NCBI RefSeq assembly: GCF_014204915.1
Contig: NZ_JACHMH010000001.1
Coordinates: forward strand, 4,365,501-4,429,500
Direction of reading: 5' to 3'
Length of the DNA: 64,000 bases
Source of the DNA: Crossiella cryophila
GTDB lineage: Bacteria > Actinomycetota > Actinomycetes > Mycobacteriales > Pseudonocardiaceae
Part shown: positions 14,274 to 31,041 of the stretch, one piece after another
Numbering within the stretch: position 1 is the first letter of the stretch
Layout: each line of letters begins with the position of its first letter
Notes under the pieces: model-generated
What the model was told of the DNA's origin: nothing
The model's input: the letters and a program-made list of their open reading frames with translations, nothing else
Databases searched by the model: none
Position numbers and translations under genes: made by a program

Positions 14274-14286
14274 GCATACAATATGC
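14274..14286. promoter_or_regulatory. GntR-type palindrome S1 at the moaA start
   Basis: GCATACAATATGC is an exact 5-base inverted repeat around CAA. It matches the palindromes before panE-like, oxc, gntR, the OFA transporter and sucC. It contains TACAAT (14277-14282), a good actinobacterial -10 element seven bases before the ATG at 14289, so a bound repressor would block the promoter. Confidence 0.55.
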
Positions 14287-14288
14287 AG

Positions 14289-15287
14289 ATGGCCGGTCTT
14301 GGGCTGTTGGACTCGTTCGGGCGGGTGGCGACGGACCTGCGGGTCTCGCTGCTCGACCGGTGCAATCTGCGCTGCACCTACTGCATGCCCGAGCAGGGCC
14401 TGGACTGGCTGGCGAAGCCCGATCTGTTGACCGGCGCGGAGTTCGTCCGGCTCATCGGTATCGCGGTGCGGGAGCTGGGTGTCCGGGATGTGCGGTTCAC
14501 CGGTGGGGAACCGCTGTTGCGGCGGGATCTGGCCGACATCGTGCGTGGGGTGGCCGCACTGGCACCCCGGCCGCGGATCGCGTTGACCACCAATGGGATT
14601 GGACTCGTCCGCGCCGCCGAGGACCTGGCCGCGGCGGGGTTGGATCGGGTGAACGTCTCCCTGGACACGTTGCGGGCGCCGCGATTCCTGCGGATCACCC
14701 GGCGGGATCGGCTTGATCAGGTCCTGGCCGGGTTGCGGGCGGCGCGGCGGGCGGGGCTGGGGCCGGTCAAGGTGAACGCGGTGCTGTTGCGCGGGATCAA
14801 TGAGGATGAGGCGGTGCCGTTGCTGCGGTTCTGCCTGGCGGCCGGTTACCAGTTGCGGTTCATCGAGCAGATGCCACTGGACCCGCAGCACGGGTGGGAT
14901 CGGGACGCGATGGTGACGGCGGCGGAGATCCTGGCGATGTTGCGGCGGGAGTTCGACCTGACGCCGGAGCCGGGGGAGCGGGGCGCCGCGCCCGCCGAGC
15001 GGTGGCTGGTGGACGGGGGACCGGCGACCGTGGGGGTGATCGGCTCGGTCACCCGGCCGTTCTGCGCGGACTGCGCGCGGACCCGGCTCACCGCGGACGG
15101 GCAGGTGCGGTCCTGTCTGTTCGCGCACACCGAGACCGACCTGCGGGCCGCGCTGCGCGGTGGCGCGAGTGACGCCGAACTGGCGCGGCTGTGGCGGGAA
15201 GCCATGTGGGCCAAGCCTTCCGGGCACGGTATCGACCGGCCCGAGTTCGCCCAGCCGGACCGGCCGATGAGCGCCATCGGCGGCTGA
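14289..15287 (+). CDS. moaA: GTP 3',8-cyclase MoaA (molybdenum cofactor biosynthesis)
   Basis: The product has 332 residues and is a radical-SAM enzyme that turns GTP into 3',8-cyclo-7,8-dihydro-GTP, the first step to molybdopterin. The N-terminal cluster motif CNLRCTYC lies near residue 23-30, GGEPLLR near 74, the second cluster CADCARTR with a later Cys near 260-280, and the essential C-terminal Gly-Gly is present (MSAIGG). I prefer the ATG at 14289, possibly leaderless because TACAAT lies seven bases upstream; ATG 14283 and TTG 14271 are alternatives. Its link to the oxalate/formate set suggests a paralogue supplying cofactor to formate dehydrogenase. Confidence 0.9.
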
Positions 15288-15296
15288 CCCGCCCGA

Positions 15297-16742
15297 TCAG
15301 CGGTCCCGTTCCTCATCCAGCAGCACCACCGAACCCGGACCGGCCGCGGGCAGCGGGCGATCCAGGTGCAGTGGACGGGTGAGGGTGCCGTTGATCAGTG
15401 CGGCGCGTGGGGTGCGGCCGGTCACCGCGCCGCCCGCCACCGCGAGCAGCCGGCCCAGGGTGGTGCCACGGGGCAGTTCGTACACGCCGGGGCGGCGGAA
15501 GATGCCGGTGGCGCAGTACAGGCGGGTACCCGTTGGCAGGCCGGTGAGCAGCGGCGGGATGGCGATCAGGGTTTCCACCGAGTGCGTGATCGCCGGTTTG
15601 CCCAGCAGCACCGGCTCGGCCGGGAACGGCGGCATACCGCGGGACTCGCCACGGCGACCGGGGTAGGCGCCGCCGCCGCGGCGGATCTCCAGGTCGAAGC
15701 TGTGGCCGGAGCCGAGAATGTTGCGGCCCAGCAAGCCTTTCTCCCGGGCCTGGGCAACGGCTTCGGTGATCGTCTGGTAGGCGCGCGGGTACTCCCCGCG
15801 CAGATGCAGGTAGCCGTGGCGGCTGCCGGTGGCGATCGCGGCGATGGTCATCGCCTCCACCACCGCGAACGGATCGCCCTCCAGGAGCACCCGGTCGGCG
15901 AAGGCGGCCGGGTGGGTCTCGTCGGCGTCGCACACCAGGTAGTGCGGGGTTTCCGGTTGACTGGCGAGGACTTCCCAGCTTCGCGCGACCGGCGCGCCCG
16001 CGCCATCGCGGCTGGGCAGGCCGGATTCCCTTACCAGGCGCAGGATCTCGGCCTGGCCCAGGCGCAGCGCGTGGTGCAGGGCGGTGTAGCCGCCGGTGTT
16101 GAGGTAGTCGGACAGGCTGGCCGGGTCGACCTGGCCGATCCGGCGCAGCAGCACCAGGTTCTCCCCGCCGGAGCGCGGCACGGCGGCCGCGGCCGGGGGT
16201 TCCGGCCGGGCCCGGCGCAGATCCAGCGCGACGGAGATCGTTGCGTCCACAGTGGACGGTGCGGAGACGGCGGTGCGCTGCGGCTCGCCCGCCTCCAGTA
16301 CCAGGGCGGCCGGGGCGCGTTCGCACAGGCCGAGGCAGGGCGAGCGCTGCCAGATCACCCCGCCCGCCGGGCGGTCGGCCGGACCCAGGCGACGTTCCAG
16401 GGTCCGGCACAGGGTGGTGGATCCCGTCGCACGGCAGGCGGGTCCGGCGCACACGTGCAGCACCCGGCGCGGCCGGGGCCGCAGCGAGAACAGGGCGCAC
16501 GAGGAAGCGACGCCGAAGACCTCGGCGGCCGAGAGGGTCAGGCGGCGGGACAGGTAGTCCAGTGCCGCCTCGCTGATCCAGCCCACGCGGTCGTTGAGCG
16601 CGTGCAGGGCGGGCAACAGCAGGTCGTGTTGGCTTCTGGTGAACCCGCCGTCACTCCGACCGGAGGACGACGGGGCCAGCACGACATCGATCGCCGCACG
16701 TTCCTCTGTGGACAGTGCGGTGTCACGAGAACGGGAATCCAT
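15297..16742 (-). CDS. NuoE-NuoF-like formate dehydrogenase beta-subunit homologue, shortened and divergent
   Basis: The product has 481 residues. The NuoE half keeps all four [2Fe-2S] cysteines (Cys98, Cys103, Cys136, Cys140). The NuoF half (about 195-481) is recognisable by DADETHPAAFADRVLLEGDP and MPPFPAEPVLLGKP. But the FMN loop is GLPSRDGAGAP instead of GLRGRGGAGFP, the ICGEETALL segment after GGGAY is missing, and the protein ends before the C-terminal CxxCxxC 4Fe-4S domain. NAD/FMN chemistry is therefore doubtful. It lies 56 bases behind the ketopantoate-reductase-like gene on the same strand and probably forms an operon with it under palindrome S2. No catalytic formate dehydrogenase subunit is in the window. 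Confidence 0.75.
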   Translation of the reverse strand: MDSRSRDTALSTEERAAIDVVLAPSSSGRSDGGFTRSQHDLLLPALHALNDRVGWISEAALDYLSRRLTLSAAEVFGVASSCALFSLRPRPRRVLHVCAGPACRATGSTTLCRTLERRLGPADRPAGGVIWQRSPCLGLCERAPAALVLEAGEPQRTAVSAPSTVDATISVALDLRRARPEPPAAAAVPRSGGENLVLLRRIGQVDPASLSDYLNTGGYTALHHALRLGQAEILRLVRESGLPSRDGAGAPVARSWEVLASQPETPHYLVCDADETHPAAFADRVLLEGDPFAVVEAMTIAAIATGSRHGYLHLRGEYPRAYQTITEAVAQAREKGLLGRNILGSGHSFDLEIRRGGGAYPGRRGESRGMPPFPAEPVLLGKPAITHSVETLIAIPPLLTGLPTGTRLYCATGIFRRPGVYELPRGTTLGRLLAVAGGAVTGRTPRAALINGTLTRPLHLDRPLPAAGPGSVVLLDEERDR

Positions 16743-16798
16743 GAGCTGCCCCCGGGAGGTCAGGCAGGAGGGAGGGAGAGGGCCTGGCGGAGCAGGCG

Positions 16799-17791
16799 TT
16801 AAGAAGCGACCGCGGTGGGCAGCCGGGTGACCGAGTCGTTGAGCAGATCGGCCACCGCGTGGATCGCCTTGAGCGTGGGCACCTCGGCGCCGGTCAGCGC
16901 GGCCAGTTCGACCACCGCCGCCAGGATCACGTCCAGTTCGAGCGGTTTGCCCTTCTCCAGGTCCTGGAGCGTGGACGTCTTGTGCTCACCGGCACGTTCG
17001 GCCCCGGCCAGCCGTCGTTCGATGGAGATCTCGGGGTGGGACCCCAGCCGTCGCGCGACCTCCAGGGTCTCCCGCATCATCGACACCACCAGTTCCCTGG
17101 TACTGCGGTGTTTGCAGATGGCGGCCATGGTGGAACGGGTCAGCGCGGAGATCGGGTTGAACGCGATGTTGCCCATCAGCTTGAGCCAGATGTCCTTGCG
17201 GAGATCGGCCTCCACCGGGCACTTGAGGCCACCTTCGATCATGGCGGTGGAGAAGTCCAGGCAGCGGGCGGAGATCGTCTGGTCCGGCTCGCCGATGGAG
17301 AAGCGGGTGCCCTCCAGGTGGCGGATGACGCCGGGAGCCTCGATCTCGGTGGCCGCGTAGACCACGCAGCCGATGGCCCGCTGGACTGGGAGTGCGGCGC
17401 TGACCGCGCCGTCGGGGTCCACGCTGTTGATCCGGTGGTTGTGGAAGGGGCCGGGCAGACCGTGGAAGTACCACCACGGAATCCCGTTCTGCGCAGCGAT
17501 GATGGTGGTGCGCTCGTGTAACAGCGGCTCGATCATCCGGCCCGCGGCGGCGTACGAGTTCGCCTTGAGGCCAAGGAAGATGTGGTCCACCGGGCCGACC
17601 TCGGCCGGGTCATCGGTTGCGTGTGGTCGGGCATGGAAGTCGCCGCGGTCGGAGAGCACCCGGACCCCGGCTTCGCGGATGGCCGATAGATGCGCACCGC
17701 GGGCGATGAGATGAACCTGCGCTCCGGCACGGTGTAGGGCTGCACCCACGTACGCGCCGATGGCGCCGGCACCAAGAACAGCGATTCGCAC
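16799..17791 (-). CDS. ketopantoate reductase (PanE/ApbA) family NADP-dependent oxidoreductase
   Basis: The product has 330 residues with an N-terminal Rossmann nucleotide loop (IAVLGAGAIGAYVGAALHRAG) and the C-terminal helical domain of PanE-type enzymes (LRKDIWLKLMGNIAFNPISALT near 200, where the Lys and Asn are the usual catalytic/substrate residues). PanE proper makes pantoate for CoA synthesis. In this context the enzyme may instead reduce another 2-keto acid of the oxalate/glyoxylate pathway; that is inference. The GTG at 17791 follows AGGAGA by five bases. Palindrome S2 lies 34 bases upstream. NuoEF-like gene follows. Confidence 0.78.
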   Translation of the reverse strand: MRIAVLGAGAIGAYVGAALHRAGAQVHLIARGAHLSAIREAGVRVLSDRGDFHARPHATDDPAEVGPVDHIFLGLKANSYAAAGRMIEPLLHERTTIIAAQNGIPWWYFHGLPGPFHNHRINSVDPDGAVSAALPVQRAIGCVVYAATEIEAPGVIRHLEGTRFSIGEPDQTISARCLDFSTAMIEGGLKCPVEADLRKDIWLKLMGNIAFNPISALTRSTMAAICKHRSTRELVVSMMRETLEVARRLGSHPEISIERRLAGAERAGEHKTSTLQDLEKGKPLELDVILAAVVELAALTGAEVPTLKAIHAVADLLNDSVTRLPTAVAS

Positions 17792-17824
17792 ATCACTCTC
17801 CTGTTCTTGTGTCGACAACTCATT

Positions 17825-17839
17825 CAGCATACAGTATGG
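17825..17839. promoter_or_regulatory. GntR-type palindrome S2 between panE-like and selB-like
   Basis: CAGCATACAGTATGG, with core CATACAGTATG, sits in the 106-base gap between the leftward panE-like gene and the rightward selB-like gene. The included TACAGT (17830-17835) could be the -10 of the rightward promoter. One operator could control both units. Part of the set of six related sites in this window. Confidence 0.65.
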
Positions 17840-17897: not shown

Positions 17898-19646
17898 GTG
17901 CCTGAAGGGTTCGGGTTCCAGTCGCTCCCGCCGATGCGTGTGGTCGCCACTGCTGGAGGCGCCGGAGCCGGCAAATCCACCCTGGTGCGGGCGCTCACCG
18001 GACGGGATCCGTGGGCACGTCTGCCCTCGGGGCGGGTACTGGCATTGGTCGATCGCGCACCCGGCGCGGTCCAGGCGAGCGTGGCCACCGCCGAGGCGGT
18101 GGTGGTCGTGGTCGCGGCCGACCAGGAGTTCTCAGCCGAGCTGGCGACGCAACTGGATGTGTTGCACGCCTTGGACATCCGGCACGGGTTGCTGGTGGTG
18201 ACCCGGGCCGACCTGGCCGACCCCGGCCCGGTGCTGCGGCGGACCCGGCGGGCACTGGCCACCGGCGCGCTCGGCCGGATCGAGTGCGCGGTGGTGAGCG
18301 CGCGCACCGGCGCTGGCATCGACCGGTTCCGGTCAATGCTGGACCGGCTGGCCGCCGCGCTGCCCCCGCCGCCGGCAGCTCCGGTGCGGTTGTGGCTGGA
18401 TGGCGTAGCCGAGGCGGCGGAGGAGAAGGGGGTGCTGGTCACCGGGACCCTGATCACCGGATCGATCGAGAACGGCGCCGAACTCGCCCTCGGGCCGGAG
18501 GATCGGCGGGTGCGGGTCGGCGGGCTGGAGTCGTTGCGGCGTCAGGTGTCCGTGTTGTCCGGTCCGGCCAGGGTCACGGTGCACCTGCCCGAGGAACAAC
18601 CGGACGAACTGCCCGTGGGGACCGCGCTGGTGACCCCCGGCCGGTGGCGGCACGTCGGCGTGCTGGACGTGCGGCTGCGCCCGCTGCCCGGCCGCAAGCT
18701 GGACGGGGTCGCGGGTGATCTGGAGCTGGGCTGCGGATCGGCTCGGCAACCGGTGTTCGTCCGGGTGCTGGACGGCGATATCGCGCGACTGCGGCTGAGT
18801 GAGCCGCTGCCGCTGCGCATCGGCGACCGCGGCCTGCTGCGCGGCGGCGAGGAGGTCCTGGCCGGGTTCACCGTGCTGGACATCCTGCCGCCGGAGTTGG
18901 GCGGCGAGGCGGAGCAGATCGCGCGTGGAAACGAACTGATGAGTCGGTCAGGGATTCCCAACGGGCACGACGAATTGCGCCGACGTGGTCTGGTCCGGGC
19001 CGGTGACCTGCTCGCCATGGGCGCGGGTCTGCCGCTGGCGCCCAGGGCGGGGGAGTGGCTGATCGACCCGGCCAAACTGGACGAACTGTGCGGACAGCTC
19101 GCCGACCTGGTGCGCACCCGTGCGCGCGAACAACCCTATGACCCCGGCGTGCCCAAGGCGGAAGCGGTGGCACTGCTGGCTTTGCCACACCGAAGGCTGC
19201 TCGAACCGGTGGCCAGGGCGGCTCGTGACCTCGGTGTGCGGATCAACCAGGGCCGGCTGGTGCTGGCCGAACGCGGCGGCGAACTCGCGTTGCCGGTGCG
19301 GCAGGCGATCGAGGCACTGTGCGCCGAACTGGCGCGAAATCCTTTTCTCGCACCGGAGGCCGACCAGCTCACCGCACTGCGACTGACCCCCAAGTCGCTC
19401 GCGGCGGCCGTGCGCACCGGATTGCTGGTGCGCCTGGCCGATGGCGTCTACCTGGGACCGGACGCGGTGGAGCAGGCGGTGGCGGTGCTGTGCGCGCTGC
19501 CGCAACCCTTCACCGTGGCCGCGGCCCGAACCGCGCTCGGCACCTCCCGCCGGGTCGCGGTGCCCCTGCTGGAACTGCTCGACACCCGGCGGATCACGAT
19601 CCGGCTGCCCGACAGCCGACGTCGGATTCGCCCGGAACACGACTGA
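17898..19646 (+). CDS. SelB-like translation factor with eroded GTPase domain
   Basis: The product has 582 residues, overall SelB layout: G domain, EF-Tu-like beta barrels (GVLVTGTLITGSI near 180; VGVLDVRLRPLPG near 255) and C-terminal winged helices (ALTRLTPKSL-type segments near 490-580). The G domain is reduced to about 150 residues. A P-loop remains (GGAGAGKS, 20-27) but the AGHVDHGK form is lost, the switch I EKRRGxTID segment is absent, DVPGHE is replaced by VDRAPG, and G4 reads TRAD. GTP-driven selenocysteine insertion is therefore doubtful. GTG 17898 has GAGGAGG seven bases upstream. No selA, selD or tRNA-Sec is visible nearby. Confidence 0.75.
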   Translation: MPEGFGFQSLPPMRVVATAGGAGAGKSTLVRALTGRDPWARLPSGRVLALVDRAPGAVQASVATAEAVVVVVAADQEFSAELATQLDVLHALDIRHGLLVVTRADLADPGPVLRRTRRALATGALGRIECAVVSARTGAGIDRFRSMLDRLAAALPPPPAAPVRLWLDGVAEAAEEKGVLVTGTLITGSIENGAELALGPEDRRVRVGGLESLRRQVSVLSGPARVTVHLPEEQPDELPVGTALVTPGRWRHVGVLDVRLRPLPGRKLDGVAGDLELGCGSARQPVFVRVLDGDIARLRLSEPLPLRIGDRGLLRGGEEVLAGFTVLDILPPELGGEAEQIARGNELMSRSGIPNGHDELRRRGLVRAGDLLAMGAGLPLAPRAGEWLIDPAKLDELCGQLADLVRTRAREQPYDPGVPKAEAVALLALPHRRLLEPVARAARDLGVRINQGRLVLAERGGELALPVRQAIEALCAELARNPFLAPEADQLTALRLTPKSLAAAVRTGLLVRLADGVYLGPDAVEQAVAVLCALPQPFTVAAARTALGTSRRVAVPLLELLDTRRITIRLPDSRRRIRPEHD

Positions 19647-19733: not shown

Positions 19734-19751
19734 CCATACGGTATGCAGTAT
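19734..19751. promoter_or_regulatory. GntR-type double palindrome S3 upstream of the oxalate operon
   Basis: Two overlapping half-site pairs: ATACGGTAT (19736-19744) and ATGCAGTAT (19743-19751). The reverse complement reads ATACTGCATACCGTATGG, matching site S5 before the oxalate transporter. It lies 115 bases before the TPP-enzyme gene, the first of a six-gene run. The 87 bases between the selB-like stop and this site show nothing else. Confidence 0.7.
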
Positions 19752-19865
19752 GGGGATCGAGTGGTGTGCGGTCCGCGCAACGTCGGCCTTCACCAGTCAC
19801 CACCAAACCAGCCCGGCTCGCCCAGAGCAGACGAGCGGGCAGCGACGTGAGGAGATGACGCACCT

Positions 19866-21593
19866 ATGGCGCAGACTGCCGAGGCACCCCCCAGCGCCAG
19901 TCAGGTCGAGGTGAAGGAGACCGGCGAAGGTCTCATCTCGGGCGGCCACCTGGTGGCGAAGGCACTCAAGGCCGAAGGCGTCGACGTGGTGTTCACTCTG
20001 TGTGGCGGCCACATCATCGACATCTACGACGGCTGTGTTGACGAAGGCATCGAGGTCATCGACGTCCGGCACGAGCAGGTCGCCGCGCACGCGGCCGACG
20101 GCTACGCCCGGATCACCGGCAAACCGGGCTGCGCGGTAGTCACCGCGGGACCCGGCACCACCGACGCGGTCACCGGGGTCGCCAACGCGCTGCGCGCGGA
20201 GAGCCCGATGCTGCTCATCGGCGGCCAGGGTGCGCTGAGCCAGCACAAGATGGGCTCACTGCAGGACCTGCCGCACGTGGACATGATGGCCCCGATCACC
20301 AAGTTCTCCGCCACCGTGCCGGACACCGCGCGGGCGGCCGACATGGTCTCGATGGCCTTCCGCGAGTGCTACCACGGCGCACCCGGCCCGTCCTTCCTGG
20401 AAATCCCCAGGGACGTGCTGGACGCCTCCGTGCCGCTCGAGAAGGCCAGGATCCCCAAGGCGGGCGCCTACCGGGCCTCCACCCGCTCGGCCGGTGACCC
20501 CGAGGCCATCGAGAAGCTGGCCGACCTGCTCACCCAGGCCGAGAAGCCGTGCATCCTGCTCGGCAGCCAGGTCTGGACCACCCGGGGCAGCGACGCGGCG
20601 ATCGACCTGGTCCGCGGCCTCAACATCCCCGCCTACATGAACGGCGCCGCCCGCGGCACCCTGCCGCCCGGCGACCCGCACCACTACCAGCTCTCCCGCC
20701 GCTACGCCTTCACCAACGCCGACCTGATCATCATCGTCGGCACCCCGTTCGACTTCCGGATGGGTTACGGCAAGCGGCTTTCCGCCGAGGCCACCGTGGT
20801 CCAGATCGACCTGGACTACCGCACCGTCGGCAAGAACCGGGACATCGACCTGGGCATCGTCGGCGATGCCGGACTGGTGCTCTCCCAGGTGTTCGCGGCC
20901 ACCACCGGCCGGGTCAGCAACGGCGCCACCGGCCGCAAGGCCTGGCTGGAGGAGTTGCGCGCGGTCGAGGAGCAGTCGCTGGGCAAGCGGATGGCGCGGC
21001 AGCTGTCCAATGCCAACCCGATCGACCCGTACCGCCTGGTGCACGAGATCAACGAGTTCCTCACCGAGGACTCCATCTACATCGGCGACGGCGGCGACAT
21101 CGTCACCTTCTCCGGCCAGGTGGTCCAGCCCAAATCGCCCGGCCACTGGATGGACCCGGGACCCCTTGGCACCCTTGGTGTCGGCATCCCGTTCGTGCTG
21201 GCGGCCAAGTACGCCCGACCGGACAAGGAGGTCGTCGCGCTCTTCGGCGACGGCGCGTTCTCCCTGACCGGGTGGGACTTCGAGACCCTGGTCCGGTACA
21301 ACCTGCCGTTCGTGGGCATCGTGGGCAACAACTCCTCGATGAACCAGATCCGCTACGGCCAGGCCGTCAAGTACGGCGAGGACCGCGGCCGGATCGGCAA
21401 CACCCTCGGCGATGTGCCCTACGACCAGTTCGCCAAGATCCTCGGCGGCTACGGCGAGGAAGTCCGCGACCCCGCCGACATCGCACCCGCCCTGCAGCGC
21501 GCCCGCGAGTCAGGGCTGCCCTCGCTGATCAACGTGTGGGTCGACCCCGACGTGTACGCGCCGGGCACCATGAACCAGACCATGTACAAGTAG
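19866..21593 (+). CDS. oxc: thiamine-diphosphate enzyme, probable oxalyl-CoA decarboxylase
   Basis: The product has 575 residues with the three-domain fold of ThDP decarboxylases/lyases. The catalytic Glu is in DVRHEQVAAHAADGYAR near residue 62, and the Mg/ThDP motif is GDGAFSLTGWDFET with NLPFVGIVGNN near 460-485. Oxalyl-CoA decarboxylase converts oxalyl-CoA to formyl-CoA and CO2. The role is assigned mainly from the formyl-CoA transferase gene 21 bases downstream. The sequence is not especially close to Oxalobacter Oxc as I remember it, and a 2-hydroxyacyl-CoA lyase or acetolactate-synthase-like role is possible. The ATG 19866 follows GAGGAG. Confidence 0.68.
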   Translation: MAQTAEAPPSASQVEVKETGEGLISGGHLVAKALKAEGVDVVFTLCGGHIIDIYDGCVDEGIEVIDVRHEQVAAHAADGYARITGKPGCAVVTAGPGTTDAVTGVANALRAESPMLLIGGQGALSQHKMGSLQDLPHVDMMAPITKFSATVPDTARAADMVSMAFRECYHGAPGPSFLEIPRDVLDASVPLEKARIPKAGAYRASTRSAGDPEAIEKLADLLTQAEKPCILLGSQVWTTRGSDAAIDLVRGLNIPAYMNGAARGTLPPGDPHHYQLSRRYAFTNADLIIIVGTPFDFRMGYGKRLSAEATVVQIDLDYRTVGKNRDIDLGIVGDAGLVLSQVFAATTGRVSNGATGRKAWLEELRAVEEQSLGKRMARQLSNANPIDPYRLVHEINEFLTEDSIYIGDGGDIVTFSGQVVQPKSPGHWMDPGPLGTLGVGIPFVLAAKYARPDKEVVALFGDGAFSLTGWDFETLVRYNLPFVGIVGNNSSMNQIRYGQAVKYGEDRGRIGNTLGDVPYDQFAKILGGYGEEVRDPADIAPALQRARESGLPSLINVWVDPDVYAPGTMNQTMYK

Positions 21594-21614
21594 GTCCGGA
21601 GGGGGAAAGCCGTT

Positions 21615-22847: not shown

Positions 22848-24986
22848 ATGGTGGCTTACGACAAGGCCGCGGTGCGCGAAGTCCTGGACAAAGCGCGCGC
22901 CGAGGGCCGCGAGTCGCTCAGCGCCCCCGAGGGCAAACGACTCTGCGACGCCTACGGCATCCCGACGCCCGGCGAGGGACTCGCGGCCACCGCCGACGAG
23001 GCGGTGACCCTGGCCGGTGAGATCGGCTTCCCGGTGGTGATGAAGATCGTCTCACCGGACATCCTGCACAAGACCGAGGCCGGCGGCGTCATCGTCGGCG
23101 TCACCGACGAAGCCGGCGCCCGCGCCTCCTACGAGAAGATCATCGCCAACGCCAAGGCGTACAAGGCCGACGCGGACATCACCGGCGTCCAGGTGCAGAA
23201 GCTGCTCTCCGAAGGGCAGGAGGTGATCATCGGCGCCACCACCGACGACACCTTCGGCAAGATCGTGGTCTTCGGCCTCGGCGGCGTGCTGGTGGAGGTC
23301 CTCAAGGACGTCACCTTCCGGCTGGCCCCCCTCGAACAGGCCGAGGCCCGCGCGATGGTGGAGGACATCAAGGCGGTGGAGATCCTGCGCGGGGTGCGTG
23401 GGGCCGACCCGGTGGACCTCGACGCGCTGGCCGAGGTGGTCAAACGGCTCTCCGACCTGGTCACCGACTTCCCGGAGATCCGCGAACTCGACCTCAACCC
23501 GGTCTTCGCGGCCAAGGACTCCGCGATCGCCGCGGACGTCCGGGTGCTGGTGGAGACCGGCGAGATCACCGAGAAGCACGTGTACTCCGACGAGGACATC
23601 ATCATCGCGATGAACCGGCTGATGAAGCCGAGGAACATCGCGGTGATCGGCGCCTCCGCCGAGGACGGCAAGATCGGCAACTCGGTGATGAAGAACCTGG
23701 TCAACGGCGGCTACCAGGGCGGCATCTACCCGATCAACCCCAAGGCCGACGAGATCCTGGGCCGCAAGGCGTACAAGGCGGTCGGCGACGTGCCCGCCGA
23801 CGTCGACGTGGCGGTGTTCGCCATCCCGGCCAAGTTCGTCGCCGGGGCACTGGAGGAATGCGGGAAGAAGGGCATCCCGGCCGCGGTGCTCATCCCGTCC
23901 GGGTTCGCCGAGACCGGCAACCAGGAACTCCAGGACGAGGTCGTGGAGATCGCCCGCAGGCACGGCATCCGGTTGCTGGGCCCCAACATCTACGGCTACT
24001 ACTACACGCCGGAGAACCTCTGCGCGACCTTCTGCACGCCCTATGACGTCAAGGGCGGGGTGGCGCTGACCTCCCAGTCCGGCGGCATCGGAATGGCCAT
24101 CCTCGGCTTCTCCCGCACCACCAAGATGGGTGTCTCGGCCATCGTCGGCCTCGGCAACAAGTCCGATGTGGACGAAGACGACCTGCTCACCTTCTTCGAG
24201 CAGGACGAGAACACCCAGTGCGTGGCCATGCACCTGGAGGACCTCAAGGACGGCAGGGCCTTCGTGCACGCCGCCCAGCGGATCACCAAGAAGAAGCCGG
24301 TGGTGGTGCTCAAGGCCGGGCGCACCTCCGCCGGGGCCAAGGCAGCCAGCTCGCACACGGGCGCGCTGGCCGGTGACGACAAGGTCTACGACGACATCCT
24401 GCGCCAGGCCGGGGTCGTGCGCGCCCCCGGCCTGAACGAGATGCTGGAATATGCCCGAGGGCTGCCGTTGCTGCCCACGCCCAAGGGCGAGAACGTCGTG
24501 ATCATCACCGGCGCCGGTGGCTCCGGCGTGCTGCTGTCGGACGCCTGTGTCGACAATGGACTGTCCATGATGGAGATCCCACCCGACCTGGACGAGGCGT
24601 TCCGCAAGTTCATCCCGCCCTTCGGCGCGGCGGGCAACCCGATCGACATCACCGGCGGCGAACCGCCCTCCACCTACGAGGCCACCATCCGGCTCGGGCT
24701 GGAGGACCCGCGGATCCACGCGCTCATCCTCGGTTACTGGCACACCATCGTCACCCCGCCGATGGTCTTCGCCGAGGTGACCGCGCGAGTGGTCAACGAG
24801 GCGCGCGCGAAGGGCATCGACAAGCCGGTCGTGGCCTCGCTGGCCGGTGACACCGAGGTCGAGCGGGCTAGTGAATACCTGTTCGACCATCGTATTGTCG
24901 CCTATCCCTACACCACGGAGCTGCCGGTCGCGGTGCTGGGAGCCAAGTACCGCTGGGCACGATCAGCGGGACTGATCGAACAGTAA
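22848..24986 (+). CDS. fused ADP-forming acyl-CoA synthetase (acetate--CoA ligase family)
   Basis: The product has 712 residues in beta-alpha order: an ATP-grasp domain first (residues ~1-240, with FPVVMKIVSPDILHKTEAGGV), then the CoA-binding and ligase domains (NIAVIGASAEDGKIGNSV near 264). The phosphorylated His is His503 in AASSHTGALAG. These enzymes form acyl-CoA from acid, ATP and CoA with ADP release, or run in reverse. It starts three bases after frc. Priming the pathway with formyl-CoA or oxalyl-CoA, or recovering ATP from formyl-CoA, are context-based options. Substrate is not determinable by eye. Confidence 0.85.
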   Translation: MVAYDKAAVREVLDKARAEGRESLSAPEGKRLCDAYGIPTPGEGLAATADEAVTLAGEIGFPVVMKIVSPDILHKTEAGGVIVGVTDEAGARASYEKIIANAKAYKADADITGVQVQKLLSEGQEVIIGATTDDTFGKIVVFGLGGVLVEVLKDVTFRLAPLEQAEARAMVEDIKAVEILRGVRGADPVDLDALAEVVKRLSDLVTDFPEIRELDLNPVFAAKDSAIAADVRVLVETGEITEKHVYSDEDIIIAMNRLMKPRNIAVIGASAEDGKIGNSVMKNLVNGGYQGGIYPINPKADEILGRKAYKAVGDVPADVDVAVFAIPAKFVAGALEECGKKGIPAAVLIPSGFAETGNQELQDEVVEIARRHGIRLLGPNIYGYYYTPENLCATFCTPYDVKGGVALTSQSGGIGMAILGFSRTTKMGVSAIVGLGNKSDVDEDDLLTFFEQDENTQCVAMHLEDLKDGRAFVHAAQRITKKKPVVVLKAGRTSAGAKAASSHTGALAGDDKVYDDILRQAGVVRAPGLNEMLEYARGLPLLPTPKGENVVIITGAGGSGVLLSDACVDNGLSMMEIPPDLDEAFRKFIPPFGAAGNPIDITGGEPPSTYEATIRLGLEDPRIHALILGYWHTIVTPPMVFAEVTARVVNEARAKGIDKPVVASLAGDTEVERASEYLFDHRIVAYPYTTELPVAVLGAKYRWARSAGLIEQ

Positions 24987-25101: not shown

Positions 25102-26619
25102 ATGGATCCTTCGAACACCCCGAGCGCGGGGCCGACCACCAGCGGGGGCAACGACCTCGCAGGCGGCGGCTCGGAACGCGTGTGGCGGGCCGGTCGGCTC
25201 GATCCGATGCCCATCCGGAAGTTGCCCGACGCGCCACCGTCGGTGCACCTGATCGGCCCCACGGTGTTCCTGGTGGCACTCGGGGTCGGCATGGGCGAGT
25301 CGTACATGTGGCCCCGCCTGGTCCTGGTCTTCGGACCGGAGATCCGGTGGTTGTTCCTCATCGGCGTCACCCTGCAGGCCGTGGTGATGCTGGAAATGGC
25401 CCGTTACGCCATGGCCACCGGCGAGAGCATCTTCGCCGGCGCGGCCAGGGTCTTCAAACCGATCATGTGGTTCTTCTTCATAGTCGCGATCGCGGTCTAC
25501 ATCTGGCCCGGACACCTCTCCGCTGGCATGTCCGCGCTGGAGAAGATCACCGGCATACCCTGGCAGGTAAGCGCGATCGTCGGCCTGGTACTGGTCGGCG
25601 TGTTGTTCAGCCTGGCCAAGGTGATCTACAACCTGCTGGAGAACGTGCTGGCCATCCTCATCGGACTCCTGGTGGTCAGTACCGCGGTGGTGGCGGCACT
25701 GGTCGGCACGTGGGCCGATCTGGCGAGCACGATCAGCGGCATGTTCCAGTTCGGCTATCTACCCAGCGAGATGTTCTCCCAGGCGTGGTTCCCGATCGTC
25801 GTGGGCTCCATCGCGTTCGCCGGACCCTCTGGCATGCAACAGATGTGGTACACGCTGCACCTGCGTGACTCCGGCGCCGGCATGGGCGCGCACATCCCGC
25901 AGATCAAGGGACTGCGCGCCTCCGAATCCGGCGAGGCCGAGCAGATGCCCGCCCGCGGGTTCATGTTCGACACCGCCGACCCGGATGAGATGGCCAAGTG
26001 GAAGGGCTGGCGGCGCTGGGTCACCTTCGACGCGCTGCTGCTGTTCTGGGGGGTGACCATGCTGGTCACCGTCTCCTTCACGGTGCTGGCCCAGACCGCG
26101 GCCAGACAGAACCCCAACGTGAAGGACCTCATCGCCGGCGGTGACCGCACCGCGGCGCTGGACGCGATGGCCGACGCCTTCTCCTCACTCGGCGGACCCG
26201 CGCTGGGCACGGTGTTCTTCGGGTTCATCGCGCTGATCGGGTTGAACGCCACCCTGGGCCTGTTCGACTCCTTCTCCCGCGGCCAGGCCGACATGACCTA
26301 CTTCTTCGTGCCCGGCGCCAAGAAGATCGGCATGTCCCGGCTCTACGCGGGCTTCCTGTGGGGCCTGATCCTCTTCGGCATCATCATCCTGCTGTGGGGC
26401 CCGGCCAAGGGCCCGGCGGCGATCCTGGACGTGCTGGCGTTCCTCTCCGCCTTCGCCATGGGCGCCTACTGCGTGGTGCTGTTGCTGGTCAACAACAAGA
26501 TGCTGCCCAAACCGATCCGGCCGAAGTGGTGGACCAACGCCATCATCGGCTTCGGCGCGGTGTTCTACCTGGGCATGCTGTTCTACTCCCTGATCGCCTA
26601 CGGCGTGGTATTGGACTGA
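25102..26619 (+). CDS. Nramp-superfamily carrier without metal-binding motifs
   Basis: The product has 505 residues with about eleven transmembrane helices. The fold is Nramp-like: helix 1 is GPTVFLVALGVGMGESYMWPRL and helix 6 lies around FAGPSGMQQMWYTLHL. Metal transport in Nramp needs DPGN in helix 1 and MPH in helix 6; here those positions read MGES (64-67) and a GPSGMQQ segment (241-247). Metal coordination as in MntH is therefore unlikely. Inside the oxalate operon it could carry oxalate, formate or another organic anion; this is inference. A 110-base gap separates it from the synthetase gene, and the next gene starts five bases after its stop. Confidence 0.72.
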   Translation: MDPSNTPSAGPTTSGGNDLAGGGSERVWRAGRLDPMPIRKLPDAPPSVHLIGPTVFLVALGVGMGESYMWPRLVLVFGPEIRWLFLIGVTLQAVVMLEMARYAMATGESIFAGAARVFKPIMWFFFIVAIAVYIWPGHLSAGMSALEKITGIPWQVSAIVGLVLVGVLFSLAKVIYNLLENVLAILIGLLVVSTAVVAALVGTWADLASTISGMFQFGYLPSEMFSQAWFPIVVGSIAFAGPSGMQQMWYTLHLRDSGAGMGAHIPQIKGLRASESGEAEQMPARGFMFDTADPDEMAKWKGWRRWVTFDALLLFWGVTMLVTVSFTVLAQTAARQNPNVKDLIAGGDRTAALDAMADAFSSLGGPALGTVFFGFIALIGLNATLGLFDSFSRGQADMTYFFVPGAKKIGMSRLYAGFLWGLILFGIIILLWGPAKGPAAILDVLAFLSAFAMGAYCVVLLLVNNKMLPKPIRPKWWTNAIIGFGAVFYLGMLFYSLIAYGVVLD

Positions 26620-26624
26620 TCATC

Positions 26625-27179
26625 ATGAGTGAACCGCTGCAACCGCCACGAATCAGCGCCTTCGCTCAACTGGCCGCCCCCGGCGCGCTGGTGGGGGTGC
26701 TGGCAGGCTCGGTCGCCGGACTGCTGGCCCTGCTGGTCGGTCAGCCGCTGGGCTGGGCACTGACCACCGCGCTCGGACTCGGGGTGCCACTGGCCCTGCT
26801 GGGCGGGCTGTACGGGATCGGCGCGGCCACCGGTCACATCCGGCTCGGCGTGTTCGCGCCCGCCGCGGTGTTCTGGATCATCGGCTTCCCGTTGAGCAGG
26901 CTGATCCAGGAGGTCGTGGTCCACCTGGTGATCGCGGGCAACCTGCGGGTGCCCGCGGATCTGCTCGGATTCCTGGCCTACCAGGGAATCGTGAGCGCCG
27001 GCTTCGCGATCGGCTTCATCTGGCTGCACGAACGCCTTGCCCCGCAGTTGTTCCGGCGGTTCGCGCCACGCAACCCGTTGGCCGCCCAGGCATTCACCCG
27101 CTACGCCTCCCACGCGGAGACGGTGTGGGCGGCCAAGTCCCGTGCCCGAGCCGCGCGAGCGGCTGCCCGAGGAGCCTGA
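26625..27179 (+). CDS. four-helix membrane protein of the oxalate operon, unknown function
   Basis: The product has 184 residues with four hydrophobic helices (LVGVLAGSVAGLLALLVG, ALTTALGLGVPLALLGGLYG, LGVFAPAAVFWIIGFPLSR and GFLAYQGIVSAGFAIGFIWL) and a basic, alanine-rich C-terminus. I do not recognise the family. Five bases separate it from the Nramp-like gene and one base overlaps terC, so it is cotranscribed with both. A helper of the carrier is a reasonable guess only. Confidence 0.75.
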   Translation: MSEPLQPPRISAFAQLAAPGALVGVLAGSVAGLLALLVGQPLGWALTTALGLGVPLALLGGLYGIGAATGHIRLGVFAPAAVFWIIGFPLSRLIQEVVVHLVIAGNLRVPADLLGFLAYQGIVSAGFAIGFIWLHERLAPQLFRRFAPRNPLAAQAFTRYASHAETVWAAKSRARAARAAARGA

Positions 27180-28213
27180 TGACCTTCTCCATGTGGGTCT
27201 GGATCGCCACCGTGGGTGGTCTGGGCGCGATCGTCGCGTTCGACTTCTACCTGGCGGCCCGCAACCCTAGGGATCCCTCGTTCAAGGAAAGTGTGGGCTG
27301 GACCGTCGCCTACGTCACCCTGGCCGTCCTTTTCGGACTCGGGGTGCTGTGGCTGGCCGGTCCGCGCTACGGCGGGGAGTTCTTCGCCGGCTGGATCACC
27401 GAGTACTCGCTGTCGGTGGACAACCTGTTCGTGTTCATGCTGATCATGAGCAGGTTCGCGGTGCCCAAGCTGTACCGGCAGAAGGTGTTGCTGGTGGGCA
27501 TCGTGATCGCGTTGCTGATGCGCGCGGTGTTCATCGCGGTGGGCGCGGAAGCGGTGTCCCGGTTCAACTGGCTGTTCTACGTCTTCGGCGCCTTCCTGAT
27601 CTTCACGGCGTGGAAGCTGCTCCGGCAGGACCCGAACGCGGAGGAGGAGTTCTCCGAGAACGTCGTCCTGCGCACGGTGAAGAAGTTCGCCCCCACCACC
27701 GACGACTACGTCGGCGCGAAGATGGTGACCCGGATCAACGGGCGGCGGATGGTGACGCCGATGCTCATCGTGATGGTCGCGATCGGCACCACCGACCTGT
27801 TGTTCGCACTGGACTCGATCCCGGCGATCTTCGGGCTGACCAGGGAGCCATACCTGGTCTTCACCGCCAACGCGTTCGCGCTGATGGGGTTGCGCCAGTT
27901 GTTCTTCCTGATCGGCGGCCTGCTCGACCGGCTGGTCTACCTCTCGGTCGGGCTGGCCGTGATCCTGGCGTTCATCGGGGTGAAACTGGTGCTGGAGGCC
28001 ATGCACGGCTCCGGCGTCCCGTGGGCGCCGACCATCTCCATCCAGCTGTCGCTGTCCTTCATTGTGGGGACACTGGCGGTGACCATCATTGCTAGTGTGA
28101 TCAAATCCAGGCGGACCGAACGAGCCGCTGCCGCCGCTGCGGCACCGGAACCCGTGCGGACCGCTCAGGCCTCGTCCAGCACAGCGGCGCTGGACGAGAC
28201 CGGGACCGGATGA
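27179..28213 (+). CDS. TerC-family membrane protein (Alx/TerC, manganese-export group)
   Basis: The product has 344 residues with about eight to nine helices. TerC signatures are EYSLSVDNLFVFMLIMSRF near residue 80, with the conserved Asp and Asn, and the second half TTDLLFALDSIPAIFGLT near 205. Known relatives (Alx, MeeY) export Mn2+ and metallate exported proteins. Being last in the oxalate operon, it may relieve metal taken up with, or released from, metal oxalates; this is inference. The start ATG shares its A with the previous stop codon. The C-terminal tail is Ala/Glu-rich and disordered. Confidence 0.85.
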   Translation: MTFSMWVWIATVGGLGAIVAFDFYLAARNPRDPSFKESVGWTVAYVTLAVLFGLGVLWLAGPRYGGEFFAGWITEYSLSVDNLFVFMLIMSRFAVPKLYRQKVLLVGIVIALLMRAVFIAVGAEAVSRFNWLFYVFGAFLIFTAWKLLRQDPNAEEEFSENVVLRTVKKFAPTTDDYVGAKMVTRINGRRMVTPMLIVMVAIGTTDLLFALDSIPAIFGLTREPYLVFTANAFALMGLRQLFFLIGGLLDRLVYLSVGLAVILAFIGVKLVLEAMHGSGVPWAPTISIQLSLSFIVGTLAVTIIASVIKSRRTERAAAAAAAPEPVRTAQASSSTAALDETGTG

Positions 28214-28288
28214 GCCCGGCGCACTGGAGCTATCCCTGGACCCAGTGACCGGTAGTGCGGTACTCGGCGAACCAAGAGGTGGCCGGGG

Positions 28289-28486: not shown

Positions 28487-28586
28487 CAATACACCTCCTC
28501 ACATCAGGGATATACCCGGATGGCGACGGCGCCATTCGGGAGTGTGTCGCAGCGAACTCCGGGAAATCCCAGAGCTTGGCGATGCG

Positions 28587-29342
28587 CTAGGGCTTGACGG
28601 GCGCGGTGCGGGCCACCGTGCGACGGCGGCGCCGCAACGGCACCTCCGGCGCGGGCGTCTCCGCTGGCGCGCTCTGCCTGGCCTCCAGATAGGACTGCCG
28701 GGTGCGGTCGGTGTGCTCGCGCATGATCTCCGCGGCCCGCTCGGCGTCGCCGGTGGAGATCGCGCTGATCAGCTTGCGGTGCTCCCGCCAGGACTGCTTG
28801 CCGCGCTGGCGGGCGACCGGGGTGTAGAACCAGCGGACCCGGCGGTCGACCTGCGCGGCCAGTTCGAGCAGCACCTTGTTGCCGGAGAGTTCGGTGACAT
28901 AGCGGTGCAGGGCCGCGTTGGCGGCCACCGCCCCGTCCACGTCGTCGGCCAGCACCGCGGCCTCGCCCTGCTGGCAGATCTCGCGCAGCCGGGCCACCCC
29001 GTCCTTGTCCGCGTTCAGTGCGGCCAGCCGGGCCGATTCGGTCTCCAGCAGGGTGCGTACGGCGAGCAGCTGGTCCGCCTCCTGCTCGGTGGGCACGTGC
29101 ACGAACGCGCCGTACCCGGGCACCAGATCGACCCAGCCCTCGTTGTTGAGCCACTGGAGCGCCTCGCGCACCGGCTGCCGGGAGACACCCAGCATCTCCG
29201 CCAGCTCGCCCTCGACCAGGTGCTGACCCGGGGCGAGGCTGCCGGTGATGATGAGGTCGAGCAGGGCCTCGAAGACCCGCTCCCGCAAGGGGACCGGCCG
29301 ATCGATCCGGCGTGCGGCCGTACCCTGCGACAGCTCCGACAT
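28587..29342 (-). CDS. GntR-family (FadR/FCD subfamily) regulator, probable regulator of the oxalate genes
   Basis: The product has 251 residues. N-terminal winged helix (VFEALLDLIITGSLAPGQHLVEGELAEMLGVSRQPVREAL) followed by an all-helical FCD effector domain (residues ~85-220, with the metal-ligand-type residues in AALHRYVTELSGN and MREHTDRTRQ) and a basic tail. FCD regulators bind short palindromes and sense organic acids. ATG 29342 is chosen because GGAG stands six bases before it; the ATG four codons upstream has no ribosome site. A matching palindrome (S4) lies about 80 bases upstream, which suggests autoregulation. Confidence 0.88.
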   Translation of the reverse strand: MSELSQGTAARRIDRPVPLRERVFEALLDLIITGSLAPGQHLVEGELAEMLGVSRQPVREALQWLNNEGWVDLVPGYGAFVHVPTEQEADQLLAVRTLLETESARLAALNADKDGVARLREICQQGEAAVLADDVDGAVAANAALHRYVTELSGNKVLLELAAQVDRRVRWFYTPVARQRGKQSWREHRKLISAISTGDAERAAEIMREHTDRTRQSYLEARQSAPAETPAPEVPLRRRRRTVARTAPVKP

Positions 29343-29422
29343 CGTGTGCTCCATGAGGTGAGGTGGGCGCTTTCGCCCGGTGTGCCGATCTTGACTCTAT
29401 TGTGCCTGGTCGACTGCCTACA

Positions 29423-29435
29423 GCATACAGTGTTC
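29423..29435. promoter_or_regulatory. GntR-type palindrome S4 upstream of gntR
   Basis: GCATACAGTGTTC keeps the left half and centre of the shared motif (CAGCATACAGT) but has a degenerate right half. It is the weakest of the six sites, as often seen for autoregulated repressors. It stands 81 bases before the GntR start codon. Confidence 0.5.
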
Positions 29436-29583
29436 CAAATGCCTGAATTGCGTGACCACGGCCACAAGGGACAGACCACCCATACCGCGTACACGTTTTG
29501 GAAAGAAACACACCGATTGCGAGCAGTGCATCACCTTCCGCCACCAATCCGCATCTCATGATGCCCCAAACGGACGCTCGATC

Positions 29584-30927
29584 TCATCGGACACGCTGGG
29601 TTGTCCAGAGCAATGGGATTCGGCCCGGTTGCCGCAGCAACCTGCACAACAGCGCCGAACCCAGTGCCAGGGCTCCTGCCAGCAGGAACAGTGCCGGGTA
29701 CCCCATTGTGGGGACAGCGGCGGCGGTGAGTCCGACCCCGGCGATACCGCCGAATGCCTTGGCGCTGTAGACCACCGCGTGTATCTCGCCGTGTCGCCGG
29801 TCACCGAAGTACTCCCGGACCAGACTGGCCACCAGCGGATAACACGCCCCGCCCGCGCCCGCGAGTACCGCCGCGGCCAGCAACAACGGCAGCGATTGAT
29901 CCCTGGCACTGGCCGCCAGCGCGGCCTGGGACAGTGCCAGCACGGTCAGGGTGGCGGCCAGGGTGCGGGCCCGGCCGATCCGGTCGGAGACCCGCAGCAC
30001 CACCGCCCGCGCCACCCCGTTGCCGGCCACCAGCAGCGCGGTGGCCGCGCCGATCACCGGCGGGCTCAGATCGAGGGTGGCGGCGAAGCCGGCGAAGGCG
30101 GCCACGGTGAACAGGGTGACCGCGCTGGCACAGAACAGGATCACCGCGAGCGCGGGCAACGCGCCGATGCGCACCGCCTCTCCCGGTGAGTAGTCGCGGA
30201 CCGCCGGGAGGTTGGCCGAGCCGGGACCGCGGCGGCGGGACAGCGCCCACGCCCGCGGATCCACCTGCGGCGGCCACCAGTTTGACGGCGGGTCCCGGAA
30301 GAACACCCCGGCCACGGCGATCACCAGGCCCAGTACCAGGCCGGTGCGGTCCAGGGTGGGCACCAGGTTCGTGGCGGAGACGGTCGGCAGCACGAGCAGC
30401 AGGAACGGGATGGCGCCCATGGCGAACGCGCCGGTGACCAGGCTGACCCGCACGGCCGAGCGATCCGGGAACCACTTGGCCACCGTGGACGCGCTCACCG
30501 CGTAGACCAGCCCGGCCCCCGCACCGCCGAGGAGCGAGAAGCCCAGCAGGGCGCCGGAAAAGCCGGGTGCACGGCCGAGGGCCACTGGACCCAGCAGACA
30601 CATCGCCGCGCCCAGCCACAGTAACGCCCGAGGACCGAGGACACCCCGCTCACGCAGGTAAGCAACAGGTAAACCCACCCCGGCCTGGGCGGTGATCCAC
30701 AGTGCCAGCAACCAGAAGGTCTGGCTGACCGGCCAGCCGTGCAGTGCGGACAGCGCGGGCGCCAGCGCGCCGAAGGAGTACTGGAGCACACCGGCCGCGG
30801 CCATCGCGGCCAGCGGCGGCGCCAGTTGCCAGGAGCGGGACCGGCCGGTCAGCAGCTCCGCGCTGGGGCCGACCCGGTAGTCGCGGCCGAAGCAGTCACG
30901 CAGCTCGGCGGGTGGGGGAGTGGTCAT
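29584..30927 (-). CDS. OFA-family MFS transporter (oxalate/formate antiporter type)
   Basis: The product has 447 residues with twelve predicted helices. OFA-type features are GVLQYSFGALAPALSALHGW at helix 1, AGLVYAVSASTVAKWFPDR between helices 4 and 5, and the long central loop before GEAVRIGALPALAVILF. Family members exchange oxalate for formate (OxlT) or import monocarboxylates. The ATG 30927 has GGGAGGA before it, and palindrome S5 lies 19 bases upstream. With frc on the other side of gntR, this is the best candidate for oxalate uptake and formate release. Confidence 0.85.
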   Translation of the reverse strand: MTTPPPAELRDCFGRDYRVGPSAELLTGRSRSWQLAPPLAAMAAAGVLQYSFGALAPALSALHGWPVSQTFWLLALWITAQAGVGLPVAYLRERGVLGPRALLWLGAAMCLLGPVALGRAPGFSGALLGFSLLGGAGAGLVYAVSASTVAKWFPDRSAVRVSLVTGAFAMGAIPFLLLVLPTVSATNLVPTLDRTGLVLGLVIAVAGVFFRDPPSNWWPPQVDPRAWALSRRRGPGSANLPAVRDYSPGEAVRIGALPALAVILFCASAVTLFTVAAFAGFAATLDLSPPVIGAATALLVAGNGVARAVVLRVSDRIGRARTLAATLTVLALSQAALAASARDQSLPLLLAAAVLAGAGGACYPLVASLVREYFGDRRHGEIHAVVYSAKAFGGIAGVGLTAAAVPTMGYPALFLLAGALALGSALLCRLLRQPGRIPLLWTTQRVR

Positions 30928-30945
30928 CGGTCCTCCCTCTACTAG

Positions 30946-30961
30946 ATACTGTATGCAGTAT
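30946..30961. promoter_or_regulatory. GntR-type double palindrome S5 before the OFA transporter
   Basis: ATACTGTATGCAGTAT. The outer ATACTG/CAGTAT arms form a perfect inverted repeat; on the coding strand it reads ATACTGCATACAGTAT. It sits directly upstream of the transporter ribosome site, 19 bases from the ATG, and 66 bases from site S6 of the divergent sucC gene. Confidence 0.7.
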
Positions 30962-31026
30962 ACATCGCGAAGCAATGCTGGGGACCTGCTGAAATCATGC
31001 GCCCGGACTCTGGTGCTCAGTCTCAC

Positions 31027-31041
31027 ATACTGTATACAGTA
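31027..31041. promoter_or_regulatory. GntR-type palindrome S6 immediately before sucC
   Basis: ATACTGTATACAGTA contains a perfect 14-base palindrome (TACTGTATACAGTA). Its TACAGT (31036-31041) would be a -10 element seven bases before the GTG, which implies a leaderless message and direct blocking by the repressor. Confidence 0.7.

Follow-up and report, generated by a model that had tools for sequence, protein, structure and literature searches.

Among the large carbon sources of soil is oxalate, the breakdown of which drives the oxalate-carbonate pathway. We describe here a putative regulon for oxalate use in a 64,000-nucleotide stretch of the actinomycete Crossiella cryophila (the window, bases 4365501–4429500 of a single-contig genome of 10,058,141 bases), where an 18-bp palindrome recurs at promoters around the gene of a GntR regulator of the FCD (FadR) subfamily. 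Catabolic regulators of this subfamily, such as LldR, GlcC and DgoR, have organic-acid effectors according to the available part of PMC4494728; DgoR and CitO are the subjects of PMC7674646 and PMC4746285. Like the LldR/GlcC/DgoR-type proteins, the window regulator combines a GntR and an FCD domain with conserved histidines, and GT-AC palindromes lie at catabolic promoters. Unlike them, its apparent target is the metabolism of oxalate, glyoxylate and formate, in dispersed operons that include formate dehydrogenase (FDH) and molybdenum-cofactor genes.

A comparable route is the oxalate assimilation of Methylobacterium extorquens. As there, a PanE-like reductase (the likeness being one of description), Frc and formate oxidation stand side by side; panE2 is given as the gene of an oxalyl-CoA reductase in the available part of PMC12686821. 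Unlike M. extorquens, the present system has glyoxylate carboligase (Gcl) and the glycerate route in the regulon, a non-canonical enzyme in the place of oxalyl-CoA decarboxylase (OXC), and an FCD-GntR protein as regulator. Compared with the frc-oxc-yfdVE cluster of E. coli, the window Frc is 56% identical to E. coli Frc over 417 positions; the canonical residues are present in E. coli Oxc, and the 9.5 kb of that cluster that were read have no annotated GntR gene. A search of the open literature, with subscription papers and RegPrecise outside its scope, found no paper describing this regulon or a regulator of actinomycete oxalate use. The sites are most likely the operators of a catabolic regulon under an FCD-GntR protein, a known kind of system, here with a new target pathway. 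Judging from sequence, the FCD-GntR protein of the window most probably acts as local repressor of a regulon for oxalate use, with the 18-bp palindrome as its binding site.

A palindrome confined to one part of the genome

An earlier note on this DNA had listed six near-identical palindromes around a 14-mer, at six promoters. The 14-mer belongs to a palindrome of 18 bp, CATACTGTATRCAGTATG, and a match is indeed present at all six places; counted against CATACTGTATACAGTATG in the 18-mer register, ‘near-identical’ fits four of them, whereas the copy before gntR is moderate and that at moaA weak (Table 1). The identical 18 bases of the operator in front of the gene for a thiamine pyrophosphate (TPP) enzyme and frc, CATACGGTATGCAGTATG, are found again in many genera, and the gntR copy is kept in 3 of the 4 other Crossiella (L056, L057 and L058, not L055; here and below L denotes loci or stretches and G genomes). 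Secondary matches overlap at 17828, 29424 and 30938, 7 bp off (5, 6 and 5 mismatches), and may be extra half-sites of the kind reported near GntR sites in the available part of PMC4494728. A positional matrix built from 62 distinct sites holds 19.8 bits, with CTGTATACAG as its core.

The whole genome was searched with the 18-mer at up to 3 mismatches, which gave 4 places (8 rows on both strands), all of them inside the window, that is, in 0.64% of the genome; the reversed pattern gave no match in the same search. Even scatter of the motif over the genome, which the earlier note had set against its own reading, is thereby ruled out. In the window, a 17-mer version at up to 3 mismatches has 8 matches against 0.57 expected, a number reached by 0 of 100 shuffles, and these shuffles together with the genome-wide count against its control rule out chance likeness of the palindromes. 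A looser 16-mer search returned 18 rows that merge into 10 places, 5 of them in the window, the gntR copy included and the moaA copy excluded; its reversed controls gave 4 and 3 rows, and by itself this search is near noise. Its matches outside the window lie at 1019056, 6563417, 8958358 and 9094647 and, with 3 mismatches, at 8658899, where the match precedes an FDH operon.

The centre of the site lies upstream of the start codon, 16.5 bp from that of sucC, 20.5 bp from that of FDH, 26.5 bp from that of the major facilitator superfamily (MFS) transporter gene, and 38.5, 68.5, 71.5 and 122.5 bp from those of panE, the selB-like gene, gntR and the TPP-enzyme gene, respectively. Since the sites are promoter-proximal, repression would be favoured over activation. 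A scan of 28500–31200 for sigma-70 promoters and terminators found none.

The GntR regulator and its probable sites in related genomes

The regulator is an FCD-type GntR protein, as the earlier note had it, with 66.5 bits for PF00392 (cut-off 27) and 97.3 bits for PF07729 (cut-off 24.3), although its gene, placed at 28587–29342 in that note, ends at 29354. The nearest NCBIfam models stay far under their cut-offs (phnR_burk, 108 against 271 bits; NanR, 92 against 260), and solved GntR-family regulators match it at 68 bits or less. N146, H150, H192 and H214, which we take to be the metal/carboxylate ligand positions of the FCD domain, with Asp usual at the position of N146, are identical in all 102 aligned GntR sequences, and R172 and R174 are fully or nearly invariant; both features would suit an effector that is a carboxylate or a CoA ester. 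Outside the FCD domain, a basic C-terminal tail, RR.RTVART.PVKP (window 28590–28640), is kept in the aligned orthologues that reach it.

Co-occurrence was scored in 150 genomes of the family, our own included. The 18-mer at up to 2 mismatches is present in 50 of them and its reversed control in 3; a gntR orthologue (at least 238 bits, the next matches having 132) is present in 60, and frc over its cut-off in 55. Motif-bearing genomes have gntR in 49 of 50 cases, the exception being G103, as against a single motif-bearing genome among the 90 without gntR. Likewise, frc is found in 54 of the 60 gntR genomes and in 1 of the 90 others (G010). The corresponding Fisher P-values, 1.5e-27 for motif and gntR and 1.0e-32 for gntR and frc, ignore kinship. 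The earlier note had proposed checking that the motif tracks frc in relatives, and this it does: 46 of the 50 motif-bearing genomes have both. Eight genomes have gntR and frc with the motif absent at up to 2 mismatches.

In the available part of PMC4494728, operators of the FadR subfamily have the form GTM-N0-1-KAC, and the commonest spacing from GT to AC is 3 nt. The core GTATAC matches this form at N0, its GT and AC being separated by 2 nt. A rival view, in which some other regulator at the locus binds the palindrome and the FCD-GntR protein has another target, could draw on this departure from the commonest spacing of the subfamily and on the absence of an autoregulatory site (up to 4 mismatches) at 80 of 104 gntR orthologues. 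We regard it as very improbable, in view of the tracking of gntR by the motif, a motif core that fits the subfamily consensus, and a recognition helix, SRQPVREALQ, that is nearly invariant among the orthologues.

Sites were also mapped relative to genes in 40 stretches of the family, 20 further ones (most of them round FDH genes), stretches with remote sites, and 80 loci of named genomes retrieved by a search with the GntR protein, six distant paralogues (L199–L204, 31–35% identity) being excluded. The GntR-found loci include Actinophytocola, Amycolatopsis, Kutzneria, Sphaerisporangium, Acrocarpospora, a Nocardiopsaceae and many Streptomyces, and were picked by the GntR protein alone. L125, L126 and L128 (same genomes and places as L058, L057 and L079) and L106, L205 and L206 (overlapping L081, L056 and L057) were dropped, leaving a count over 146 stretches, in which a site counted if it fell between 350 bp upstream and 30 bp downstream of the estimated start. 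Identity floors were 70% for gcl, 60% for the TPP-enzyme gene (tppE), panE, frc, acs, nramp and sucD, 55% for sucC, gntR and fdhG, 50% for terC, and 45% for the MFS and selB-like genes.

The same promoters carry the site across families. At up to 4 mismatches it lies upstream of panE in 73 of 75 cases (74 at up to 5 mismatches), of tppE in 29 of 44 (40), of sucC in 20 of 31 (29), of fdhG in 6 of 15 (8) and of gntR in 24 of 104 (37); at both levels it lies upstream of the MFS gene in 13/13 and of the selB-like gene, whose gap is common with panE, in 7/7. Genes internal to the operons have sites at both levels in 1/45 (frc, L176), 0/43 (acs), 0/28 (nramp), 0/25 (sucD) and 0/4 (gcl) cases, and shuffled palindromes at up to 5 mismatches give less than 1% for every gene. 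The unit panE-fdhA-nuoEF carries AATATTGTCTACAGTATG unchanged in many Streptomyces loci. Remote sites stand at an aldehyde-dehydrogenase-like gene in G031, G125, G131 and G147 and at a divergent pair of transhydrogenase-like and YjbQ-like genes in G053 and G084, all named from the sequence by eye, which suggests extensions of the regulon; the sites in L207, L214 and L215 fit no such extension.

The confinement of the motif, its tracking of gntR and its place at the same promoters across genera support the claim of one regulon under the GntR protein for oxalate use. The further claim that all six promoters are controlled fared less uniformly: four well-matched sites speak for it, control of moaA is likely rather than certain, and autoregulation would apply to part of the orthologues. 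Several results weigh against the regulon as read here. The spacing in the window operator is 2 nt, compared with 3 in most FadR-subfamily sites in the available part of PMC4494728. At its own promoter gntR has a site in only the 24 of 104 loci counted above. Many family stretches were picked partly by a motif, frc or FDH match, and the rates are biased accordingly. Four tppE loci have no site (L078, from a genome without gntR, L082, L148 and L158), and 7 of 15 fdhG loci have none at up to 5 mismatches. The transporter label given earlier, oxalate/formate antiporter, is not borne out by the family models (126 against 374.85 bits for TIGR00890, 112 against 335 for TIGR04259, 136 against 320 for NF049980). 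Finally, gntR occurs without frc over cut-off in 6 of 60 genomes (G039, G049, G081, G110, G112 and G144). In G049 and G081 the contig ends within tppE; no such excuse is seen for the other four, so the regulator can serve something else. Among the neighbours of gntR in the frc-less loci L088–L091 there is no clear alternative pathway, save FDH and a mobA-like gene in L091.

A non-canonical enzyme in the place of oxalyl-CoA decarboxylase

The gene before frc had been labelled oxc, a name its product does not sustain: it reaches 240.0 bits with TIGR03254, whose cut-off is 739.4. It passes none of the 25 models shown, the best being NF004516 (496 against 587 bits). In the available part of PMC10192776, E56, Y120, E121 and Y483 have roles in the reference OXC, and an alignment of actinobacterial OXC Group I keeps Y120 in 96.8% and E121 in 95.5%. 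All four residues are kept in E. coli Oxc and in 3 canonical-type enzymes of Streptomyces. The TPP enzyme of the window and 7/7 other aligned tppE copies keep E56 and have L, Q and N for Y120, E121 and Y483; compared with Group I as described in that part of PMC10192776, the window enzyme is alike in its actinobacterial oxalate enzyme lineage and differs in having L and Q at Y120/E121. No OXC over cut-off is present in the 55 frc genomes (0/55), and the best match to the OXC model, as read from the match list, is the TPP enzyme beside frc in 53 of them; G037 has better matches elsewhere (328 and 309 bits) and G147 has none at that threshold. These points, too, tell against the oxalate reading, in which the TPP enzyme is a candidate oxalyl-CoA decarboxylase by its context beside frc. 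A search for canonical oxc would miss all such genomes, which make up 55/150, and through the conserved operator one can reach oxalate genes that escape family models, namely those of the TPP enzyme, the PanE-like reductase and the MFS transporter, with a simple prediction for each.

The same regulator and genes might instead serve a substrate that is not mainly oxalate; the TPP enzyme would then be a 2-hydroxyacyl-CoA lyase with formyl-CoA as a product, as in the breakdown of 2-hydroxyisobutyrate by Actinomycetospora. The enzyme scores higher with the lyase model NF058623 (354 bits) and the lyase structure PDB 7pt3 (269) than with OXC (240) and PDB 2c31 (182); it is without Y120, E121 and Y483 of OXC, and its LQ pair is that of 7pt3. 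A GntR gene also lies beside the lyase of A. chiangmaiensis in the available part of PMC7176365. However, the lyase cut-off of 600 bits is missed as well, Frc is a clear formyl-CoA:oxalate CoA-transferase, and the presence of Gcl and GarR in the regulon agrees with glyoxylate, obtainable from oxalate. At what we take to be the position of the catalytic Glu of the lyase, the TPP enzyme has Ile, and the top lyase entries, 7pt3, 9qz5 and 7pt2, differ from one another there. Against the lyase reading stand also the Streptomyces loci described next, and we consider it unlikely.

In the four Streptomyces loci tested, a canonical oxc-frc pair (955–961 bits) lies near an orthologous gntR (66–67% identity). 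No other finding ties the regulator so closely to oxalate, and by it the TPP enzyme becomes a candidate for a second OXC class. Immediately upstream of gntR, each of the four has a site with 4 mismatches, which in L152 and L193 occupies the gap to panE; a site with 2 mismatches precedes the canonical oxc by about 2.9 kb in L181, L184 and L193. The TPP enzyme and canonical OXC thus look like alternatives under one regulator.

Under the oxalate-regulon reading, we infer that a GntR dimer would bind CATACTGTATRCAGTATG, centred 16–123 bp ahead of the start codon in each well-matched gene, and that it would leave the DNA when its FCD pocket takes up an organic acid or acyl-CoA formed in oxalate metabolism. 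The units controlled would be panE-nuoEF, the selB-like gene, the TPP-enzyme gene with frc and the acyl-CoA ligase gene, the MFS gene and sucCD-hyi-garR-gcl, and further the FDH operon 4.26 Mb away, with gntR and moaA as probable members. After uptake, oxalate would be activated by Frc with CoA from succinyl-CoA or formyl-CoA. Part of the oxalyl-CoA would be split to formyl-CoA and CO2, the formate being oxidised by a molybdenum FDH for NADH; the remainder would be reduced to glyoxylate by the PanE-like enzyme and pass through Gcl and GarR to glycerate. In genomes with the remote site, a transhydrogenase might turn NADH from FDH into NADPH for the PanE-type reductase.

Formate dehydrogenase, molybdenum cofactor and other genes

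The FDH operon 4.26 Mb from the window encodes NuoE-like, NuoF-like and FdhA proteins and starts 12 bp after the 18-mer, which occupies genome positions 8658898–8658915. The sequence before it, GTATACCGTATGCACGATG, is kept in 5/5 Crossiella, with different flanks in G016. Other genera have FDH genes within the oxalate cluster or next to it. The distant operon very probably belongs to the regulon, which would then be larger than the earlier note described. Relatives of the NuoE/NuoF-type fusion downstream of panE in the window adjoin fdhA and panE in other genera.

The start codon of moaA is probably the ATG at 14283 or 14289, so that the site overlaps it. Control of moaA by GntR is likely from the features that follow; its copy has 6 mismatches, and the conservation overlaps coding sequence, both of which count against it. 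The sequence CATAC[A/G]ATATGCAGATG is kept in 4/4 Crossiella stretches with moaA (two with A, two with G), and no moaA match was found in the stretch of the fifth Crossiella, G016 (L055). A parallel to the moaA start codon inside the palindrome comes from G039, G049, G056 and G081: there the start codon of a mobA-like gene upstream of fdhA (named by eye from its LAGGRSSRMG motif) forms the exact end of an operator with 1–4 mismatches. Both the conservation and the parallel speak against taking the match at moaA, and perhaps that at gntR, as chance or coding-sequence likeness, with four operators as the true local regulon. This smaller regulon is nevertheless a real possibility, if on balance a doubtful one, as the moaA copy overlaps the start codon and is missed genome-wide within 3 mismatches even by the 16-mer.

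Table 1. Genes and operator copies of the window (window coordinates; model scores in bits, operator mismatches as defined in the text)
Feature	Position	Strand	Evidence
Weak operator copy overlapping moaA start codon	14275..14292	+	6 mismatches
moaA, GTP 3',8-cyclase (molybdenum cofactor)	14283..15287	+	TIGR02666, 366 bits, cut-off 284
NuoE/NuoF-type fusion, probable FDH diaphorase subunit, downstream of panE	15297..16742	-	PF01257, PF01512
panE-like reductase, candidate oxalyl-CoA reductase	16799..17791	-	NF005089, 441 bits, cut-off 223
Operator between panE and selB-like gene	17821..17838	.	3 mismatches
Second, GTPase-degenerate SelB paralogue	17898..19646	+	TIGR00475, 71.6 bits, below cut-off 242
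Operator of TPP-enzyme-frc operon	19735..19752	.	2 mismatches
TPP enzyme in place of oxalyl-CoA decarboxylase, non-canonical	19866..21593	+	TIGR03254, active-site columns
frc, formyl-CoA:oxalate CoA-transferase	21615..22844	+	TIGR03253, 663.5 bits, cut-off 504.2
Nucleoside-diphosphate-forming (NDP-forming) acyl-CoA ligase (acs)	22848..24986	+	PF13549, PF13607, PF19045
Nramp family metal transporter	25102..26619	+	NF037982, 447 bits, cut-off 50
TerC/Alx family metal homeostasis membrane protein	27125..28213	+	TIGR03718, 371 bits, cut-off 246
GntR regulator, FCD (FadR) subfamily	28587..29354	-	PF00392, PF07729
Moderate operator copy before gntR	29417..29434	.	5 mismatches
MFS transporter, oxalate/formate-antiporter-like, below family cut-offs	29584..30927	-	Models TIGR00890, TIGR04259, NF049980
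Operator before MFS transporter	30945..30962	.	3 mismatches
Operator before sucCD-hyi-garR-gcl	31026..31043	.	1 mismatch
sucC and sucD, succinate-CoA ligase	31051..33118	+	NF001913, 506 bits, cut-off 370; NF004230, 438 bits, cut-off 336
Hydroxypyruvate-isomerase-like protein (hyi)	33141..33989	+	TIGR03234, 287 bits, under cut-off 353
Tartronate semialdehyde reductase (garR)	33986..34876	+	TIGR01505, 347 bits, cut-off 341
gcl, glyoxylate carboligase	34873..36588	+	NF008431, 874.7 bits, cut-off 791

The panE-like protein belongs to the PanE subfamily by its model score, and the solved structures related to it are named ketopantoate reductases; oxalyl-CoA reduction is a candidate role. Gcl narrowly misses a second model, TIGR01504 (697 against 711 bits). 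The gene of the NDP-forming acyl-CoA ligase comes after frc in most mapped loci, and the enzyme might serve to regain ATP from formyl-CoA or to prime the activation of oxalate. In many loci an Nramp gene follows acs, and the Nramp and TerC/Alx genes (window 25102–28213) come after frc-acs in many relatives, a placement that suggests metal handling linked to oxalate. Membership of terC in the regulon is not supported, its own site being absent in 27/28 loci at both mismatch levels; the exception is L087, where a site precedes terC.

In the SelB-like protein, switch I is deleted and DxPGH lost in the alignment, whereas the C-terminal winged domain is kept. The paralogue is found in Crossiella and one other genus, g27, with copies in the window, L106, L220 and L055 (about 5240–5690). 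The G016 copy has lost sequence in frame and consists of a P-loop remnant and the C-terminal wing. SelB-like proteins of archaea have reportedly been described. A regulon round a non-orthologous OXC class, which replaces the canonical enzyme in many actinomycetes under a conserved FCD-GntR switch and to which, in two genera, a GTPase-dead SelB has been added whose winged C-terminus serves as an RNA-binding regulator of FDH or selenium use during growth on oxalate, is a speculation that we hold improbable as a whole.

The selB-like gene is separate from the selA-selB-tRNA-Sec set at 8.96 Mb (genome 8954000–8970000, L105). As a sign of a selenocysteine FDH in the Crossiella genome the gene was rejected: the FDH alpha subunit has Cys, and 0/6 FDH-type matches have an inner stop. 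The genome thus has tRNA-Sec, selA and selB, yet no selenoprotein among these 6 matches, a wider search not having been made (coordinates of this observation, genome 8954000–8970000 and 8661682–8663703). In G035 an FDH alpha gene with a single inner TGA lies beside the oxalate cluster (contig 20, 24963–26864, near L065) and possibly encodes a selenocysteine enzyme. Upstream of moaA, 22-bp tandem repeats (GGCCAACAYGCCGT-like) form two opposed blocks in the window at 13140–13249 and 13530–13770.

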